64,000 bases of DNA from Lachnospiraceae bacterium (GTDB lineage Bacteria; Bacillota; Clostridia; Lachnospirales; Lachnospiraceae), in assembly GCA_015057585.1 (NCBI GenBank), contig SVEF01000003.1:1-64000 (forward strand). Direction: 5' to 3'. Under the pieces are notes generated by a model, which worked only from the letters and a program-made list of their open reading frames with translations, was not told the DNA's origin and did not search any database. This document shows, in pieces, positions 14,877 to 40,617 of the stretch. The stretch's first letter is position 1. Every line of letters starts with the position of its first letter. Position numbers and translations under genes: made by a program.

Positions 14877-14971
14877 TGGTTTCCGAGGTGAAGATTTTCT
14901 CTCACTGTCCGATTACACAACGATGAATTTTATAGAATTTTGCATGCAGAAATTCATATGTAACGTGACCG

Positions 14972-15009
14972 CCCCGAAATCCGCCCTCCTTGGCGGTTCG
15001 GGGCTTTTT
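14972..15009 (+). terminator. Intrinsic terminator after the DUF2971 gene
   Basis: Stem CCCCGAAnnCCGCC / GGCGGTTCGGGG (14972-15003) is followed by CTTTTT. It lies about 95 bp after the stop codon. The rest of the gap up to 15243 shows no gene or signal that I can support. Confidence 0.75.
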
Positions 15010-15243
15010 CTGACCTCCTGTCAGAAAATCACTGAAAACGAAGCAAAATTCTTAAAATTCTATCGTTGCTCCATCATGGACATCTTCGAGAAAATCTTCA
15101 TCATCAAAACCAGGCAAGACCGTCGGCTTCTTTCAGACAATTCGACATGTTCCTACAGACAGAACCAGCACCGACATTTTCCCGAGCTTGGCGTATGCTA
15201 TCAACCCACACATCACACTCTTCGCTTGAAGTAACTTTGGGCA

Positions 15244-33840: not shown

Positions 33841-34069
33841 TGTTCCAGATGACAAACGCTCTTATTGCATCTGCCTCAAATTCATCATAAATCAGGTTTC
33901 GCCACTCGCATTCGCCACGATACACCTTGATAAACTTCTCAAATCCATACTTTTGAATGAAGTACCATACATAAACACCGGCATAATCATATCCCTGATT
34001 ATCAACAAAATTGTCAAAGCCAATCAGGTCAGTCACCCTTGGGCACTCCGAAGCACTGATATAGTTCAA
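33830..34069 (-). CDS. Short frame after the ABC-F gene, likely C-terminal remnant of a peptidase-like protein
   Basis: A 79-codon frame with a TTG start that overlaps the ABC-F stop codon (TTGA), without a strong ribosome binding site. The sequence GYDYAGVYVWYFIQKYGFEKFIKVY resembles the C-terminal helices of gluzincin (MA clan) peptidases, where a Y-hydrophobic-IxxKYG segment is common. It lacks any catalytic motif. It may be translated by coupling to the ABC-F gene, or be a dead fragment joined there by a deletion. The last codons lie in the arm of the long hairpin. Confidence 0.4.
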   Translation of the reverse strand: MNYISASECPRVTDLIGFDNFVDNQGYDYAGVYVWYFIQKYGFEKFIKVYRGECEWRNLIYDEFEADAIRAFVIWNRKM

Positions 34070-35670
34070 ATCCGTCTGCTCTGCAACTCTATTACCTTAT
34101 TTGCAATTCTTTTACCAAACTCCTCGTTATGTTCTACGAAAATCAAGGTTAGTTCCTCATCCATCAGCGCGGTCTCCAACTGCATTTTAAACTGCACGTC
34201 CATATAATTCAAGGGCTCGTCTAAGAATAAAACATGATGATTTCCTGCGAGCGTCCTTGCAATATCCACCTTTTTTAGTTCACCACTGCTGAGCGTTTCT
34301 AATGGACGTCTTTCAAAATCCTCCGGCAAATCAAACAATCTGCACAAGTCTCTGAACCTTGCATAAACCTCGTGGTAATCCTTACTCATCTGCGTTTCTG
34401 CATGTAGAAAATCCTTAATATTTCCTTTCCGGCAAACCGGTTCCTGTGGCACATACGCAATGGACAGCCCCGCCCTCCGGCGGATTCCGGTTCCCGTAAG
34501 CCGTCCTGCCAGCAATTTTAGCAGGGTCGTCTTTCCCGCACCATTTTGCCCACGGAGCCAAATTTTATCGCCCGGATATACTTGAATTGTCACATTCTTA
34601 AGTATCGGAGCAAAAGCACCTTCATAGCAAAAGCTTATCCCATCTGCTGCCAATAAACATTCCTGCTCTGATATTTCCTGATAAATGCTGAGCTGCTTTT
34701 CTTCCTCCAAATTGCAAAGCAGTTGCTTTTTTTCTGCAAGATTCTCCTGAATCTGCTGTTCCGCTGCCTTTGCCTGCCGCATGTAGGCTCTGGTTCCGTT
34801 TGCCCTGGCATTCCCTGCAAAGTGATATTTTTGCTTGTTTCCGATATCGGACCAGGTTCTGGTTGTCTTCGATTGCCTCTCCAGCTGGTTGATTTCCTGC
34901 ATCAGCCGCTGTCTCGTGCGCAATTCAAACTGTTCCTTCCACTCCATGTTTCTGCGCCAGGTCGAATAATTTCCCTGCTCGATGGAAATATCCGCTTTGT
35001 TGATTGCCAGAATATGGTCTGACACTGCATCCAGAAAAACCGTGTCATGTGATGCAATGATGTACCCTTTTTTCTTTTTCAGATATTCTTTCAGATGCTC
35101 CTTTTTCTCCTTGTCCAAATGATTGGTCGGTTCATCCAATAATACAAAAGCATCCTTACGCAAAAACAACGCAACAATCAGCATACAGGTCTGCTCACCA
35201 CCGGAAAGTGTTGCAAACTCCTGCTCCAAAAGTTCGGTAGATAAACCCATTTGCGACACTTCTTTGCAGATTCGGCTCTCCATTGCATATCCGTCGCTCT
35301 CCACATATTGGCTCAATGCTTCCAAATACTTCTCATTTTCGTTTGCATCGGGATTTGCTTCGTACTTCTCCAATTGCAATTCCAACGTTTTCAATCCTCC
35401 GATGCACTCTTTTACAATATCAAATGTTTTCGTAAACGAAACATCCACAGTATAGGGAAAATAGGACACCGTCCCGCTTCGCCGAATGATTCCCTCGGAC
35501 GGTTCCAAACTTCCGTCCAGCAGTCGTAACAACGTACTCTTTCCACGTCCGTTCCGACCGACTAATGCCATCTTCCAGTCCGTATCCAGATTCACACTCA
35601 AATGTTCAAACACCGGATGATAAAAATCATCATAATAAAATGTCATATCTCTTACTTCAATTTGTGCCAT
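34066..35670 (-). CDS. ABC-F family ATPase, probable antibiotic-resistance or ribosome-protection protein
   Basis: A 534-residue soluble protein with two ABC domains and no membrane helices. First domain: Walker A GRNGRGKST, signature LSGGEQ, Walker B LLDEPTNHLD. Second domain: GQNGAGKTT, signature LSSGELKK, LFLDEPLNYMD. A linker of about 80 residues between them is basic and helical, as in Lsa/Vga-type proteins that displace lincosamides, pleuromutilins or streptogramins from the ribosome. The start at 35670 (MAQIEV) has an AGGAGA site. The frame continues to 35691 without one. It is preceded by a leader peptide and hairpin typical of drug-induced ABC-F genes. The resistance range cannot be predicted. 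Confidence 0.85.
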   Translation of the reverse strand: MAQIEVRDMTFYYDDFYHPVFEHLSVNLDTDWKMALVGRNGRGKSTLLRLLDGSLEPSEGIIRRSGTVSYFPYTVDVSFTKTFDIVKECIGGLKTLELQLEKYEANPDANENEKYLEALSQYVESDGYAMESRICKEVSQMGLSTELLEQEFATLSGGEQTCMLIVALFLRKDAFVLLDEPTNHLDKEKKEHLKEYLKKKKGYIIASHDTVFLDAVSDHILAINKADISIEQGNYSTWRRNMEWKEQFELRTRQRLMQEINQLERQSKTTRTWSDIGNKQKYHFAGNARANGTRAYMRQAKAAEQQIQENLAEKKQLLCNLEEEKQLSIYQEISEQECLLAADGISFCYEGAFAPILKNVTIQVYPGDKIWLRGQNGAGKTTLLKLLAGRLTGTGIRRRAGLSIAYVPQEPVCRKGNIKDFLHAETQMSKDYHEVYARFRDLCRLFDLPEDFERRPLETLSSGELKKVDIARTLAGNHHVLFLDEPLNYMDVQFKMQLETALMDEELTLIFVEHNEEFGKRIANKVIELQSRRI

Positions 35671-35685
35671 ATTGTCTCCTATTCC

Positions 35686-35717
35686 AAACAATCTGGCGAC
35701 TTCTCACCAGATTGTTT
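35686..35717 (-). promoter_or_regulatory. Leader hairpin of the ABC-F gene
   Basis: A perfect 11-bp stem (35707-35717 with 35686-35696) has a 10-nt loop that holds the leader peptide's stop codon. The first arm is made by the last four leader codons, so a ribosome at the end of the leader would keep it open. The ABC-F ribosome binding site begins 6 nt after the hairpin. A second GC-rich hairpin (35779-35822) lies before the leader start. Confidence 0.65.
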
Positions 35718-35760
35718 TCTTAAAACTTGTTTTTAGGTACAATCTTCTCTTAATAATCAT
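35704..35760 (-). CDS. 18-residue leader peptide of the ABC-F gene
   Basis: MIIKRRLYLKTSFKKTIW, with a strong AAGGAGG site (about 35763-35769) correctly spaced before its ATG. It is too short for ordinary gene calling. Its last codons form one arm of the hairpin before the ABC-F gene. Leader peptides with this layout control macrolide, lincosamide and pleuromutilin resistance genes by ribosome stalling. The basic and aromatic content fits a stalling nascent chain. The assignment rests on position and structure, not on a known homologue. Confidence 0.65.
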   Translation of the reverse strand: MIIKRRLYLKTSFKKTIW

Positions 35761-35890
35761 CCTAATCCTCCTTGTTTTCCGAAGGAAAATGCGAGCCGCG
35801 TTACGCGAGCAGAGGATTTTCCCTCATACTTTCTATTATTTTGCGCAACAAAAAAAGAGCCTGAGAAGTTCCCACGCAATAAAAAATCCT

Positions 35891-35919
35891 ACTATAATGC
35901 TAATCTCCGAAGAGCACAA
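35891..35919 (-). promoter_or_regulatory. Promoter of the ABC-F leader transcript
   Basis: Minus strand: -35 TTGTGC (35914-35919), 17-bp spacer, -10 TATAGT (35891-35896). This gives a leader of about 210 nt before the ABC-F start. Confidence 0.5.
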
Positions 35920-36140
35920 GAAAATCCCCGGATATCCTAATTGCTGTCAAAGACAGTTTTCCAGATGTCCGGAACGCCCCGCTTATGTCTTCATGCATTT
36001 TAGTAGGAATTATTTACGAATGATCAATTTCTTCTCAACCTCTTGTTTATGTCACTATCTTTTTGTTTTGCAACAAGGAAATAGTAGCATATGCATCAAA
36101 GCCTGTCAAGAAATCAATATCATTCAACATAACATTTCGC
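35920..36140. other. Gene-free stretch between the ABC-F leader and the AbiF locus
   Basis: A plus-strand open frame crosses this stretch but has no ribosome binding site and an improbable composition. I see only a weak inverted repeat (CCTACTA near 35888 and TAGTAGG near 36001). Confidence 0.5.
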
Positions 36141-36212: not shown

Positions 36213-36241
36213 TTGACTTTCCTCACGAAATAACTTATACT
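36213..36241 (+). promoter_or_regulatory. Promoter of the AbiF-associated small RNA
   Basis: -35 TTGACT (36213-36218), 17-bp spacer, -10 TATACT (36236-36241). The predicted start is at about 36248. Confidence 0.75.
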
Positions 36242-36247
36242 TTCGGT

Positions 36248-36314
36248 AGTGAATGAGTTACGGAAACTTGAGAAGCCCGTGACCCGGACGGCTCCTGCGG
36301 GGGCCGTTTTGTTA
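36248..36314 (+). ncRNA. Small structured RNA upstream of abiF, resembling the abiF RNA motif
   Basis: A unit of about 65 nt has its own near-consensus promoter and a terminator-like 3' hairpin (ACGGCTCC / GGGGCCGT with a TGCG loop, then TTTTGTT, about 36288-36314). The body contains ACGGAAACTTGAGAAGCCCGT, which can pair ACGG...CCGT and leaves GAAACTTGAGAAG as an internal loop. The GC-rich RNA stands out in AT-rich surroundings. A conserved RNA upstream of abiF-type genes is known from comparative genomics. Membership here is inferred from position and form. Confidence 0.7.
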
Positions 36315-36330
36315 TTTACGGAGGTATTTT

Positions 36331-37260
36331 ATGTCTGGTCATATTCACCCAAAATCTTTTCTGGATTATCCTTCACAGATAAATTTGCTCAAGCAAAAAC
36401 AATTAACTATCCACAACGAGACAATTGCTACAAACATTTTAAAAAAGATTAGTTATTACAGTCTTATCAACGGATATAAAGAGATTTTTAAGGATTCGTC
36501 CACAAATAATTATTATCCTGGGACCTCTTTTGACGATATTCATCAACTATACTTGTTTGACGCGAAATTACGAGAAATTTTTTTGAAATATATCCTTATA
36601 TTTGAAAAACATATAAAATCCTCCATATCATATCACTTCAGTAATACATATGGCAACGGTATTGCTGCTTATCAGGATTTCAATAATTACGATTATGGAA
36701 AAAATTTGGCTGATGTTCAGCATCTTTTCAAAAAAATGAATAGTAAGATTTACGGCAGACATCCCTCTTTGCAGGTAACCCACCATATAACCATTTATAA
36801 TGATGTTCCCTTGTGGGTTTTAACAACTGATTTAACCCTCGGAGAAACAGCTTGTATGTACCGTTACCTAAAGGGGCACTGCAAAACTCTTGTTTGTAAT
36901 GACTTTCAGCATATCGGCAGAGCAGAACTCGGCAAAATGCTTATTATTTTAACTAAGTTCCGCAATATTTGTGCCCACGGCAACCGCTTATTTAACGTCA
37001 AAGTTCAAGACTCTATCCCTGACCTTCTTGCACACAAAAAGTTGCATATTGCAAGAAAGAATTTCAGATATCAACATGGAAAATCCGACCTGTTTGCAAC
37101 TGTTATTTCACTTAAATACTTACTTGAGCCTGCAGACTTTCGACTTTTTTATTATGAATTAAAAAGGACAATCAAAAAATATTCTCTTCCCGATAAAGTA
37201 TTATCAGCAATGGGCTTTCCTCCAAATTGGATGTCAATATTGCGAATAAAAGTCTACTAA
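36331..37260 (+). CDS. AbiF/Abi_2-family HEPN ribonuclease, abortive-infection protein
   Basis: A 309-residue protein of the Abi_2 (AbiD/AbiF) family. The N-terminal part (KSFLDYPSQINLLKQKQL, ISYYSLINGYKEIF) is typical. FDAKLREIFLKYILIFEKHIKSS, in two blocks, is the conserved helical pair. The HEPN motif RNICAH (R211-H216, RX4H) is followed by GNRLF. HEPN proteins of this family act as RNases or RNA-binding toxins in phage defence and are considered close to the ancestors of Cas13. One HEPN motif implies that a dimer forms the active site. The gene is more AT-rich than its neighbours, which suggests transfer. It has an ACGGAGGT site and its own terminator. The RNA just upstream is its likely partner or antitoxin. 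Confidence 0.85.
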   Translation: MSGHIHPKSFLDYPSQINLLKQKQLTIHNETIATNILKKISYYSLINGYKEIFKDSSTNNYYPGTSFDDIHQLYLFDAKLREIFLKYILIFEKHIKSSISYHFSNTYGNGIAAYQDFNNYDYGKNLADVQHLFKKMNSKIYGRHPSLQVTHHITIYNDVPLWVLTTDLTLGETACMYRYLKGHCKTLVCNDFQHIGRAELGKMLIILTKFRNICAHGNRLFNVKVQDSIPDLLAHKKLHIARKNFRYQHGKSDLFATVISLKYLLEPADFRLFYYELKRTIKKYSLPDKVLSAMGFPPNWMSILRIKVY

Positions 37261-37731: not shown

Positions 37732-38046
37732 CTACAGATTTTCTAACTTTCCTGCTCCATCTTCTACCATAACCTTTAAACGGTCATATTCTTTTTTTAG
37801 CATATCCCGTCCGATATCCGTGATAACATACGATTTCCTTCTGCCGATTGCCACGGTAAGCTCTATCACATCATTTTCCTCAAACTTTGCAAGCATGGCA
37901 TATAATGTCCCCGGTCCGACCAAAACACGGCCATGTGACAGTGTTTTTACCTTTTCCATGATGTCCACGCCGCAGCATTCCTCCATAAGAGCAAGCAGAA
38001 TGTAATACATCGGTTCTGTCAGTGTTTGAAATTGTTCTCTTGCCAT
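37732..38046 (-). CDS. PadR-family transcriptional repressor
   Basis: A 104-residue PadR-type winged-helix protein. It has the family's opening (LTEPMYYILLALMEE), the recognition region (GPGTLYAMLAKFEENDVIEL), the wing (GRRKSYVITDIGRDML) and a short dimerisation helix at the end. It begins 8 bp after the third DUF2812 gene and lacks its own promoter. It most likely represses the operon through the two identical palindromes at the operon promoter. PadR with DUF2812 neighbours is a recurrent Clostridial arrangement. The inducer is unknown. Confidence 0.9.
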   Translation of the reverse strand: MAREQFQTLTEPMYYILLALMEECCGVDIMEKVKTLSHGRVLVGPGTLYAMLAKFEENDVIELTVAIGRRKSYVITDIGRDMLKKEYDRLKVMVEDGAGKLENL

Positions 38047-38054
38047 GTCATCAC

Positions 38055-39344
38055 CTACTTAAAATCCATTTTGTGACGGATGATGTCAATTTGTTCTTTT
38101 GTCAAATACACATCCGGCAGTTCATGCAGGACAAATATCATATTGTTATATTTTACATAATAATCGCCACCGCCGTTTCGAAACGCCTCCTCCGCCTGCC
38201 AGTCCTCTGTACAGTACGTGATGCCGTCAGACATCGCCTCTTTCTTGGCATTCCTCCATATCTTGTTTAACACCCAATCACACCGGGATTCATAAGCATT
38301 ATATCGGATTCTTTGGTCTGTCTTTTCATCGATTGTATACCAGGCCGTATACTCCGTACTTTTTCCAAAGATACTTCTCGTCCGGGAAATATCTGACAAT
38401 TTATACTTCGACGCATGTGGATATTCCCGGTAGTGCGTTACCAAAAACGGCATTTCCTGTGCTGCATTTTTCCTCGAATCCACTGACTCGGAATTATTCA
38501 TTCCCATCACCATAAATCCAAGAAAGATTGCTACCCAATAGACTATCAGCATCTCTTTGCTTTCCCTTCTCTTCGGGAATACTCTCCGTAAAAAAATACA
38601 GAACAGAATGATCGCAACTGCTGCTACCAAAGCAAATGCCACAATTTTCACATGCCCTAAAAGGCACAGATCCATCAGAAAAATAACAATTGCAACTAAC
38701 AAAAGAACTTGCAGCATGTAAATATGAAAAGCACCTTTTCTGTGATTCCCCAAATAGATTTCTCTTCCGTTTTTTTTATCCGCCCCAAGTCGGATTCTTA
38801 TCCATATCCTTTCCCCATAGGAATAAAACAAACCAAACAAAGCGATGCAGAAGAACATGCCCCTAAACACTTTCTCGTACGCAAAGATGAAATTTGTAAA
38901 TCCTGCAAACGAAGCAAACGAGTTTACAACAAACGCCATAAACCCTATACACAGAACTACGGCTATTATTTCCGCAATATGAAAGGATGCTTTCCATGCA
39001 TTTTTCACCCGTTCTTCCGAATCAAACAACGGTACTGCATCCTCACGTATCTTTTTTAAAACATAAAACTTTCTCCGGGAGTCTATAAACTTCCACCCGG
39101 CCGCTTCACAATACTCGCTAAATTCAAAGGCATCCCATCCCGGTTCCAAATCCCTTTCCTTTGCTTTATCAAACACTTCCACTGCATAGGTCACATCCGC
39201 CGGCTCTCCTTTTTCAAATACCAACCTGTCTTCCCATATCTTAAAGTGCCATCCCTTTGCCGCCATCTCACTTAAATACGCAGCAAAATCATCACAATGC
39301 ATGTAATCGAATTCTTTTCTTACTCTTTTATATTTTGATGCCAT
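38055..39344 (-). CDS. DUF2812 membrane protein, third copy
   Basis: A 429-residue protein. Residues 1-115 form a DUF2812 domain (VRKEFDYMHCDDFAAYLSEM, GWHFKIWEDRLVFEKGEPAD, AGWKFIDSRRKFYVLKK). Four to five membrane helices follow (about 125-290), then a C-terminal domain of about 130 residues ending in IDIIRHKMDFK. It lies 7 bp after the second copy. DUF2812 proteins have no proven function. The cytosolic N-terminal domain and the C-terminal domain could sense or relay an envelope signal. The N-terminal domains of the three copies are nearly identical while the membrane and C-terminal parts differ. Confidence 0.85.
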   Translation of the reverse strand: MASKYKRVRKEFDYMHCDDFAAYLSEMAAKGWHFKIWEDRLVFEKGEPADVTYAVEVFDKAKERDLEPGWDAFEFSEYCEAAGWKFIDSRRKFYVLKKIREDAVPLFDSEERVKNAWKASFHIAEIIAVVLCIGFMAFVVNSFASFAGFTNFIFAYEKVFRGMFFCIALFGLFYSYGERIWIRIRLGADKKNGREIYLGNHRKGAFHIYMLQVLLLVAIVIFLMDLCLLGHVKIVAFALVAAVAIILFCIFLRRVFPKRRESKEMLIVYWVAIFLGFMVMGMNNSESVDSRKNAAQEMPFLVTHYREYPHASKYKLSDISRTRSIFGKSTEYTAWYTIDEKTDQRIRYNAYESRCDWVLNKIWRNAKKEAMSDGITYCTEDWQAEEAFRNGGGDYYVKYNNMIFVLHELPDVYLTKEQIDIIRHKMDFK

Positions 39345-39351
39345 AATCTCC

Positions 39352-40617
39352 CTACCTTAATCCCATTTTATCGCGGATAATATCAATCTGGTTTTTTGTT
39401 AATTCTTCCCATTCATATAAAACAAAATAAACATTCTCATATTTTACGTAATAATCTCCGTCGCTGTCCAGGTAAGCCTCTTGCGCTTCCCACTCTGCCG
39501 CGCAGTCTGTCGGAACTCCTTTTGCCATGCCTGCCTTTGCTATATCCCACATGCCGTCAATCAGCCACTCATATTCGGAACAATACGTTTGATATCTTAG
39601 TATCCTTGTATCATATAGTGCTACATATTCTGTAAATTCTCCAAGAACGTTTTTCAAGCAGTTAATATCTGCCGTCCAAAGTTTCTCCTCATATGGTTTG
39701 TAATCCGAATAACGAAGCGGAAGCTCCTGCTTTATCTGTTGAATCTCCTCCGACGTTCTCTTTTCTGTTCCCAAAGCCTTGGATCCCAAAACAAGCACCG
39801 TCACCAATAAAACGGAGAAAATCACCCAATAGATTTTTCCCTGTGTTCTGTCAGGATGCGCTCTTACGATTTTTGTTGCAAAAAACAACGCCCCGACAAT
39901 AACCAGTGCATAAAATACTGCATATCCGATTTTATCTGCCAATATCAGACTTTCCAAAAAGGCTGCCACCAAAAACATTGCCGTAATCCATTTGACCCGG
40001 ATATATCCAATCCATTGCTTTTGATTACCAATATAAAGTGTTTCTCCCTGCCGACTTCTCTTTGTATATTGCGCTTTTTTCACCACTGCATATACAAATT
40101 TCCACAGTTCTGCACCTAAGAGCACCATCCACAAGCCCCAGATAAAGAACAGATCAAACGGGAACAAAAAGCTCTGCCATGCCGGTATCATAAAAAAGCA
40201 CTGTACTAATGCAATCAAGCTATAGAGTACAAGGGACCATACCGCACCGCCGGACACAGAAGCCTTATAGGCATTTTTCACACGTTCCTCAGGTGTAAAC
40301 AACGGAACTGCATTTTCCTTTATCTTCTTTAAAATGCAAAACTTCCTTTGGGAATCTACAAATTTCCACCCCGCCGATTCACAATACTCACTGAATTCAA
40401 AGGTGTCCTGCTCCGGTCCGAAATCCCCTTCCTTTGCTTTTGTAAACACTTCAACCGCATAGGTCACATCCGCAGGCTCCCCTTTCTCAAATACGAGGGT
40501 ATCCTCCCACAGTTTAAAGTGCCATCCCTTTGCCGCCATCTCACTTAAATACGCAGCAAAATCATCACAATGCATATAGTCAAACTGTTTTCTAACTCTT
40601 TTATACTCTGTCCCCAT
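39352..40617 (-). CDS. DUF2812 membrane protein, second copy
   Basis: A 421-residue paralogue. It has the same N-terminal DUF2812 block (FDYMHCDDFAAYLSEMAAKG, LVFEKGEPADVTYAVEVF), four or five membrane helices (about 125-285) and a C-terminal domain ending in IDIIRDKMGLR. The spacing to its neighbours (12 bp after the first copy, 7 bp before the third) shows that they are one operon. The variable middle suggests that the copies have diverged to handle different signals or to form hetero-oligomers. Confidence 0.85.
   Translation of the reverse strand: MGTEYKRVRKQFDYMHCDDFAAYLSEMAAKGWHFKLWEDTLVFEKGEPADVTYAVEVFTKAKEGDFGPEQDTFEFSEYCESAGWKFVDSQRKFCILKKIKENAVPLFTPEERVKNAYKASVSGGAVWSLVLYSLIALVQCFFMIPAWQSFLFPFDLFFIWGLWMVLLGAELWKFVYAVVKKAQYTKRSRQGETLYIGNQKQWIGYIRVKWITAMFLVAAFLESLILADKIGYAVFYALVIVGALFFATKIVRAHPDRTQGKIYWVIFSVLLVTVLVLGSKALGTEKRTSEEIQQIKQELPLRYSDYKPYEEKLWTADINCLKNVLGEFTEYVALYDTRILRYQTYCSEYEWLIDGMWDIAKAGMAKGVPTDCAAEWEAQEAYLDSDGDYYVKYENVYFVLYEWEELTKNQIDIIRDKMGLR

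Follow-up and report, generated by a model that had tools for sequence, protein, structure and literature searches.

A putative two-stage, ribosome-operated leader upstream of a divergent Lsa-like ABC-F gene in Lachnospiraceae

Introduction

The attenuators known for ABC-F resistance genes mostly carry one upstream open reading frame (uORF). The experimentally proven leaders of vmlR (PMC9226507) and cplR (PMC10201436) combine a short uORF with a terminator and a stem that sequesters the Shine-Dalgarno (SD) sequence. In the 219 nt of the vmlR leader of Bacillus subtilis, a single short uORF (MIN) is found before the ABC-F together with an intrinsic terminator and a stem masking the ABC-F SD, and stalling on the uORF leads to read-through, with control of both transcription and translation (PMC9226507). 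The leaders of cplR from Clostridioides difficile and of lmo0919/vgaL likewise combine transcriptional and translational attenuation, using one uORF (consensus MR[I/M]) and one terminator that hides the ABC-F SD (PMC10201436). Two drug-sensing peptides, MefAL (MTASMRLR, with a +X+ motif) and MsrDL (MYLIFM), control the ABC-F of mefA/msrD; both are transcription attenuators, and mefA lies between them (PMC10314930). In are5sc of Streptomyces coelicolor, two predicted uORFs precede one ABC-F gene; they overlap, only the first was found to be translated, and there is no separate translation module (PMC12421871). In erm attenuators (ErmDL, PMC8298421; the two-peptide ermB leader, PMC8274638), a ribosome stalled on the leader ORF refolds hairpins and frees the main SD. 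Single-uORF versions (vmlR, cplR, vgaL, msrD) and a two-peptide transcriptional arrangement (mefA/msrD) are established already.

Here we analyse the leader of an ABC-F gene in a window of 64,000 nucleotides (contig SVEF01000003.1, assembly GCA_015057585.1) from a Lachnospiraceae bacterium belonging to a small genus. This leader shares with vmlR the short uORF, the terminator and the masked SD, but it has two uORFs in ~405 nt, the second of them serving the translation step and the first having an SD that itself forms a terminator arm. That first uORF (MIIRK here, MRIR in relatives) resembles the cplR/vgaL consensus, whereas the jobs done there by one uORF and one terminator are split here over two modules. 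Unlike in mefA/msrD, both uORFs precede the same gene, one after the other, and the second would act on translation; unlike in erm attenuators, the main gene is an ABC-F, the second uORF of the window has Lys-Arg-Arg rather than RLR, and a transcription attenuator lies ahead. In the open-access literature, whose coverage is incomplete, we recognised no report of a tandem transcription-plus-translation two-uORF leader for one ABC-F gene, nor of the present Lachnospiraceae leader. The design would be a more elaborate variant of the known attenuators.

The ABC-F protein and its promoter

34066 to 35670, minus strand: ABC-F gene, 534 aa, Lsa-like and of the ribosomal-protection type, with an ATG start at 35670
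35676 to 35680, minus strand: ABC-F SD, AGGAG
36081 to 36109, minus strand: promoter, with -35 TTGACA (36109-36104), a 17-nt spacer ending in TG and -10 TACTAT (36086-36081)

Lsa-type proteins are active against lincosamides, pleuromutilins and streptogramin A. The protein encoded here has two ABC domains, each with its catalytic Glu (LLDEPTNHLD and FLDEPLNYMD), and its nearest solved relative is Lsa(A) (E 5.5e-75), in an alignment that spans the linker. Two ABC domains, an interdomain antibiotic-resistance linker and a solved relative that is itself an ARE ABC-F place it, in the broad sense, among ribosomal-protection (ARE) proteins. Its resistance range cannot be assumed, because it scores below both curated NCBIfam cut-offs, with 391.5 bits against 750 for the Lsa family NF000167 and 367.9 bits against 380 for the generic ribosomal-protection ABC-F model NF000355. 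In a protein tree made by a quick method, which flags its own long branches, this ABC-F and its close relatives form a clade that a long branch separates from the common Lachnospiraceae Lsa-like proteins.

The promoter matches the consensus at 10 of 12 positions, and its location gives the ABC-F gene a 5' leader of ~405 nt, with transcription starting at ~36075. An equivalent promoter (TTGACA-17-TACAAT) occupies the same place in two congeners (L010 and L012). Reading along the minus strand, the promoter is followed by uORF1, a terminator-like stem-loop (T1), the 3' arm of a second terminator (T2), uORF2, a hairpin (H3) and the ABC-F gene. The leader matched no known RNA family in Rfam at gathering or permissive thresholds.

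Related leaders

We compared the window leader (L001) with those of orthologues from its own genus (L009=L011, L010 and L012; ~74-76% identity), from two other genera of the family (L014 and L043-L048; L015, L049 and L050; 45-50%) and from other families of the order (L051-L053; ~50%). Both uORFs, each preceded by an SD and in the same order, are present in 14 of 14 leaders from three genera, whose ABC-F proteins are 45-76% identical. The peptide of uORF1 is MIIRR in L009, L010 and L012, MRIC, MRIR and MRIR in L015, L049 and L050, MRIRK and MLIHK in L047 and L048, and MLINLL..., MIINLL... or MLIYLL... in L014 and L043-L046. Ile stands at codon 3 in every relative compared, and the window differs from its congeners in uORF1 by two synonymous changes and one Lys/Arg change, and by nothing else.

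At the place matching uORF2, 13 relatives have a short ORF (MIIFTRPEMATKTIIL, MLIRKNAARKYEN, MLIRLRFMLESE, MWKIRLRIMKESE, MWIFKLRSKVYLG and others). These peptides, with that of the window, begin MIIKRR..., MIIFTR..., MLILMN..., MLIRKN..., MLIREN... or MLIRLR..., or, in a Trp type, MW(K/I)IRLR..., MWIRLR..., MWIFKLR... or MWMIRLR.... The first-pass annotation of this DNA had proposed comparing close homologues for a conserved leader peptide; place, SD and an M-[I/L/W] start are kept in every one of them, but beyond codon 3 the peptide is no longer conserved, even between the window and its congeners. A hairpin always follows uORF2 in the relatives, with the place of H3 kept and the sequence different.

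Further out, L053 (50% identity, from another family) has only a uORF1 (MRIREK) and T2, directly before the gene, so uORF1 and T2 can occur by themselves, and uORF2 forms a second module that can be separated from them. No recognisable uORF was found within the bases read for L051, L052 and L054 (45-51% identical). More distant Lachnospiraceae Lsa-like ABC-Fs (34-37%) were rejected as leader homologues, since theirs is a different, single uORF. As a separate observation, the commoner Lachnospiraceae Lsa-like ABC-Fs have a single short uORF that ends in or near Cys, often as Ser-Cys (L016, L019, L022, L024, L026, L028-L031, L034, L035, L038, L040 and L057), with peptides such as MRITSC, MKMFSC, MINISC, MRTLSC, MINFSCK, MIIISCR, MKTTSC, MIYTSCI, MMIIAC and MIDHSC; in L016 and L018 a TTGC stretch at this uORF may pair with a downstream GCAAGAA.

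The transcription module

36031 to 36044, minus strand: SD region of uORF1, AAGAGGTTGAGAAG, which doubles as the 5' arm of T2
36010 to 36027, minus strand: uORF1, TTG ATC ATT CGT AAA TAA, five codons from a TTG start, encoding MIIRK
35881 to 36009, minus strand: T1, a large intrinsic-terminator-like stem-loop with U6 at 35886-35881
35850 to 35868, minus strand: 3' arm of T2, CTTCTCAGGCTCTT, the anti-SD of uORF1, with U7 at its end

As in attenuators of this kind, a short, SD-preceded uORF that is conserved in homologues opens the long leader, ~265 nt upstream of uORF2. The 5' arm of T1 (TTCCTACTAAAATGC) begins at the uORF1 stop, and its 3' arm (GCATTATAGTAGGA) runs into the U6. T2 is made by the SD region of uORF1, which pairs with 35868-35855, and the distal anti-SD arm with its U7. 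Folded as one, the module reaches -66.9 kcal/mol (z = -5.29), with none of 200 shuffles as good. Across nine distinct leaders, 95.7% of the cells in the T2 helix are paired, a percentage favoured by the way the arms were selected, which was by eye, and then joined. The helix has 7 double-sided changes, with exchanges of U-A/C-G/U-G and G-C/A-U/G-U, and a covariation score reached by none of 500 shuffles and far above that of every slid register; judged from these alignments, covariation is the stronger part of the evidence for T2.

The T2 arm with its U-run is found upstream of the ABC-F in 9 relatives. A strict T2 pattern occurs at only 5 places in 397 genomes of the family, two of them ABC-F leaders. 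The other three lack the uORF1 layout (two are apparently the reverse strand of coding sequence and one is an ordinary terminator), and for these 397 genomes T2 was rejected as a module of other genes.

Folding with a ribosome placed on the RNA indicates that the terminator between uORF1 and the gene conflicts with a ribosome on uORF1. With codons 3-5 in the P site, T1 melts in L001, L012, L047 and L048, and more weakly in L010. In L014, L043 and L046 uORF1 itself contains the terminator 5' arm, which ribosomes at early positions weaken. In the window leader a ribosome at the uORF1 start codon does not block T1 in these calculations, so drugs that arrest at the start codon alone might not bypass it. 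By geometry, a ribosome at this position must cover the 5' arm of T2, because that arm is the SD of uORF1. As a read-out of ribosome position, the probability of pairing for the T2 3' arm as a whole was uninformative, because the arm also pairs elsewhere and five bases of the SD lay outside the assumed footprint.

The translation module

35767 to 35773, minus strand: SD of uORF2, AAGGAGG
35704 to 35760, minus strand: uORF2, 18 codons from an ATG, MIIKRRLYLKTSFKKTIW
35686 to 35717, minus strand: hairpin H3, 35717-35704 with 35699-35686, loop GAAG at 35703-35700, with the uORF2 stop inside
35671 to 35692, minus strand: alternative hairpin, AUUGUUU 35692-35686 (the H3 3' arm) with AGACAAU 35677-35671

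The first-pass annotation had singled out this part of the leader, and the 18-codon ORF with a consensus ribosome binding site that it described is there, with AAGGAGG just before the ATG. The window contains the motif AAGGAGG-N4-8-ATG 5 times, where shuffles give an expectation of 0.86. The 11-bp stem placed at the end of the ORF is a real hairpin but is 14 bp long, with one G-U pair. Its geometry also needs correcting: the stop (TGA, 35706-35704) forms the apical end of the H3 5' arm instead of lying in the loop, and it is 23 nt, not six bases, before the ABC-F SD, from which the H3 3' arm ends ~5 nt away. Drug-inducible stalling, the core of that reading, is well supported by the comparison, but it describes only the second half of the device; the promoter at 36109-36081, uORF1 at 36027-36010 and the two terminators had been missed. 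H3 has an RNAfold z of -5.06, and 1 of 200 shuffles folds as well. It was rejected as a terminator, because no U-run follows it.

In 13 leaders we moved a ribosome footprint codon by codon along uORF2 and calculated, for each position, the energetic cost of opening the ABC-F SD. In all 13 the SD is cheaper to open with the ribosome early or midway on uORF2 than near its stop. For the window, the cost falls to ~0.3 kcal/mol with codons 8-10 in the P site and rises to 5-6 kcal/mol with codons 13-17 there; in a further calculation, stalls at codons 9-11 open the SD best, at 0.3-1.0 kcal/mol against 3.6-5.5 kcal/mol late. The difference for the window is matched by 4 of 500 shuffles and robust to four footprint sizes. 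The late-minus-early difference exceeds that of dinucleotide shuffles in each of 11 leaders (p 0.010-0.079); a Fisher combination over six leaders gives p ~7e-7, which overstates the evidence because these leaders share ancestry. With a ribosome at the end of uORF2, the alternative hairpin is predicted to hold the ABC-F SD in a small loop. In drug-free window RNA the SD is computed to be only half closed (1.3 kcal/mol). As in erm-type systems, a leader ORF adjoins the gene and, in silico, the position of the ribosome decides whether the main SD is masked or free.

Alternative pairing of segments 2:3 and 3:4 is present in the window. Pairing of segments 1:2, in which segment 1 mimics segment 3, is significant in L015, L049 and L050 only, weak in the window (p 0.08-0.125) and absent from L047 and L048, and exact mimicry of the H3 3' arm within uORF2 was rejected as a general rule. 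The hairpins keep their behaviour and lose their sequence, as expected of a selected switch; given this divergence, the precise pairs described for the window should be read as predictions. Peculiar to the window leader and absent from its congeners is a stable hairpin at 35770-35830 on the minus strand (GGAAAATCCTCTGCTCGCG...CGCGGCTCGCATTTTCC), inserted between T2 and uORF2, whose AATCCTC can pair with the uORF2 SD region GAGGATT.

Other features of the window

At 36213-37260 on the plus strand lies a divergent Abi_2/AbiF gene (PF07751, 146 bits) with its own promoter at 36213-36241. A GC hairpin with a T-run just ahead (36286-36309) gives it the layout of AbiF with an RNA antitoxin (PMC12373285); RF03085 was not among the Rfam matches listed at this gene. 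Elsewhere, a TwoAYGGAY RNA (RF01731) scores 94 bits against a threshold of 43 at 14910-15076 on the minus strand. Two adjacent, similar membrane-type proteins of 429 and 421 aa, the first matching DUF2812, are encoded at 38055-40617 on the minus strand and adjoined by a PadR regulator at 37732-38046.

A putative two-stage switch and its alternatives

We propose that the leader at 36075-35671 is probably a two-stage, ribosome-operated switch of an antibiotic-response ABC-F gene. In the first stage, without drug, ribosomes would complete the five codons of uORF1 and depart, T1 and T2 would form, and RNA polymerase would halt ahead of the gene. A drug-halted ribosome on uORF1 would cover the uORF1 SD, and thereby the 5' arm of T2, allowing the polymerase to read on; one halted at codons 3-5 would also cover the base of T1. 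In the second stage, on read-through mRNA, ribosomes that reach the uORF2 stop would unwind H3, and the freed 3' arm would pair over the ABC-F SD (35692-35686 with 35677-35671), keeping translation low. If the ribosome instead stalled within the first half of uORF2, H3 would stay intact and the SD open, and ABC-F would be made. Sequence and computation give the parts, their conservation, the covariation of T2 and, in silico, the dependence of SD accessibility on ribosome position; that the two uORFs are translated, that ribosomes stall on them, that a drug is the signal and that the protein confers resistance is what we infer from this arrangement.

An alternative is that transcription attenuation suffices, with uORF1, T1 and T2 as the switch. 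In this case uORF2 with H3 would be a leader ORF without regulation, or would help re-initiation by delivering ribosomes to the start of ABC-F. L053, with uORF1 and T2 only, would fit this, as would the status of T2 as the best-conserved part, the poorly conserved uORF2 peptide and the precedent of vmlR and msrD, which are controlled mainly by transcription. We nevertheless regard it as unlikely: uORF2, its strong SD and the hairpin are kept in all 14 leaders despite their divergence in sequence, and the position-dependent masking of the ABC-F SD exceeds that of shuffles. Much less probable still is that hairpin and small ORF are chance or mRNA-stability features of a constitutive gene; short ORFs are common and segment 1:2 pairing is statistically weak in single leaders, but z-scores near -5 for both halves of the leader, conserved order and place, the covariation of T2 and the shuffle controls all speak against it. 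Amino-acid (Ile/Arg/Lys) or charged-tRNA attenuation is the least probable reading. Ile and basic residues do abound in both peptides, but the gene encodes an ABC-F and has no biosynthetic role, codons past Ile3 vary freely, Rfam finds no T-box or amino-acid leader, and the similar-looking vmlR/cplR-type leaders respond to drugs.

If the leader is a two-stage switch, the comparison would point to ribosome-targeting drugs as inducers, and to no narrower class. Very short uORFs fit lincosamides, pleuromutilins and streptogramin A, which arrest ribosomes at the start codon or just past it (PMC10201436), and RLR/KLR is the macrolide/ketolide +X+ arrest motif, present as Arg-Leu-Arg in ErmDL (PMC8298421). 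RLR/KLR occurs in the uORF2 of 7 relatives (L014 and L043-L048); L048 uses different codons for it, a hint of selection on the peptide. In the window, Lys4-Arg5-Arg6 of uORF2 fits +X+ loosely, in a peptide that is basic anyway. Conceivably, though less likely than not, the two stages form an AND gate, in which stalls on uORF1 (for mRNA) and on the differently coded uORF2 (for translation) are both required; if so, the ABC-F protein would be present only while drug still stalls ribosomes. On this reading, relatives that combine an MRIR/MII uORF1 with an RLR uORF2 may have one sensor for each of two drug classes.

The ABC-F genes of this divergent subfamily in gut Lachnospiraceae are likely to be antibiotic-response genes. 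A conserved tandem with control split between transcription and translation would account for the silencing of a costly ribosome-protection factor. It would also be a natural system in which to ask whether the range of inducing drugs becomes broader or narrower when two peptides are tuned to different stalls.
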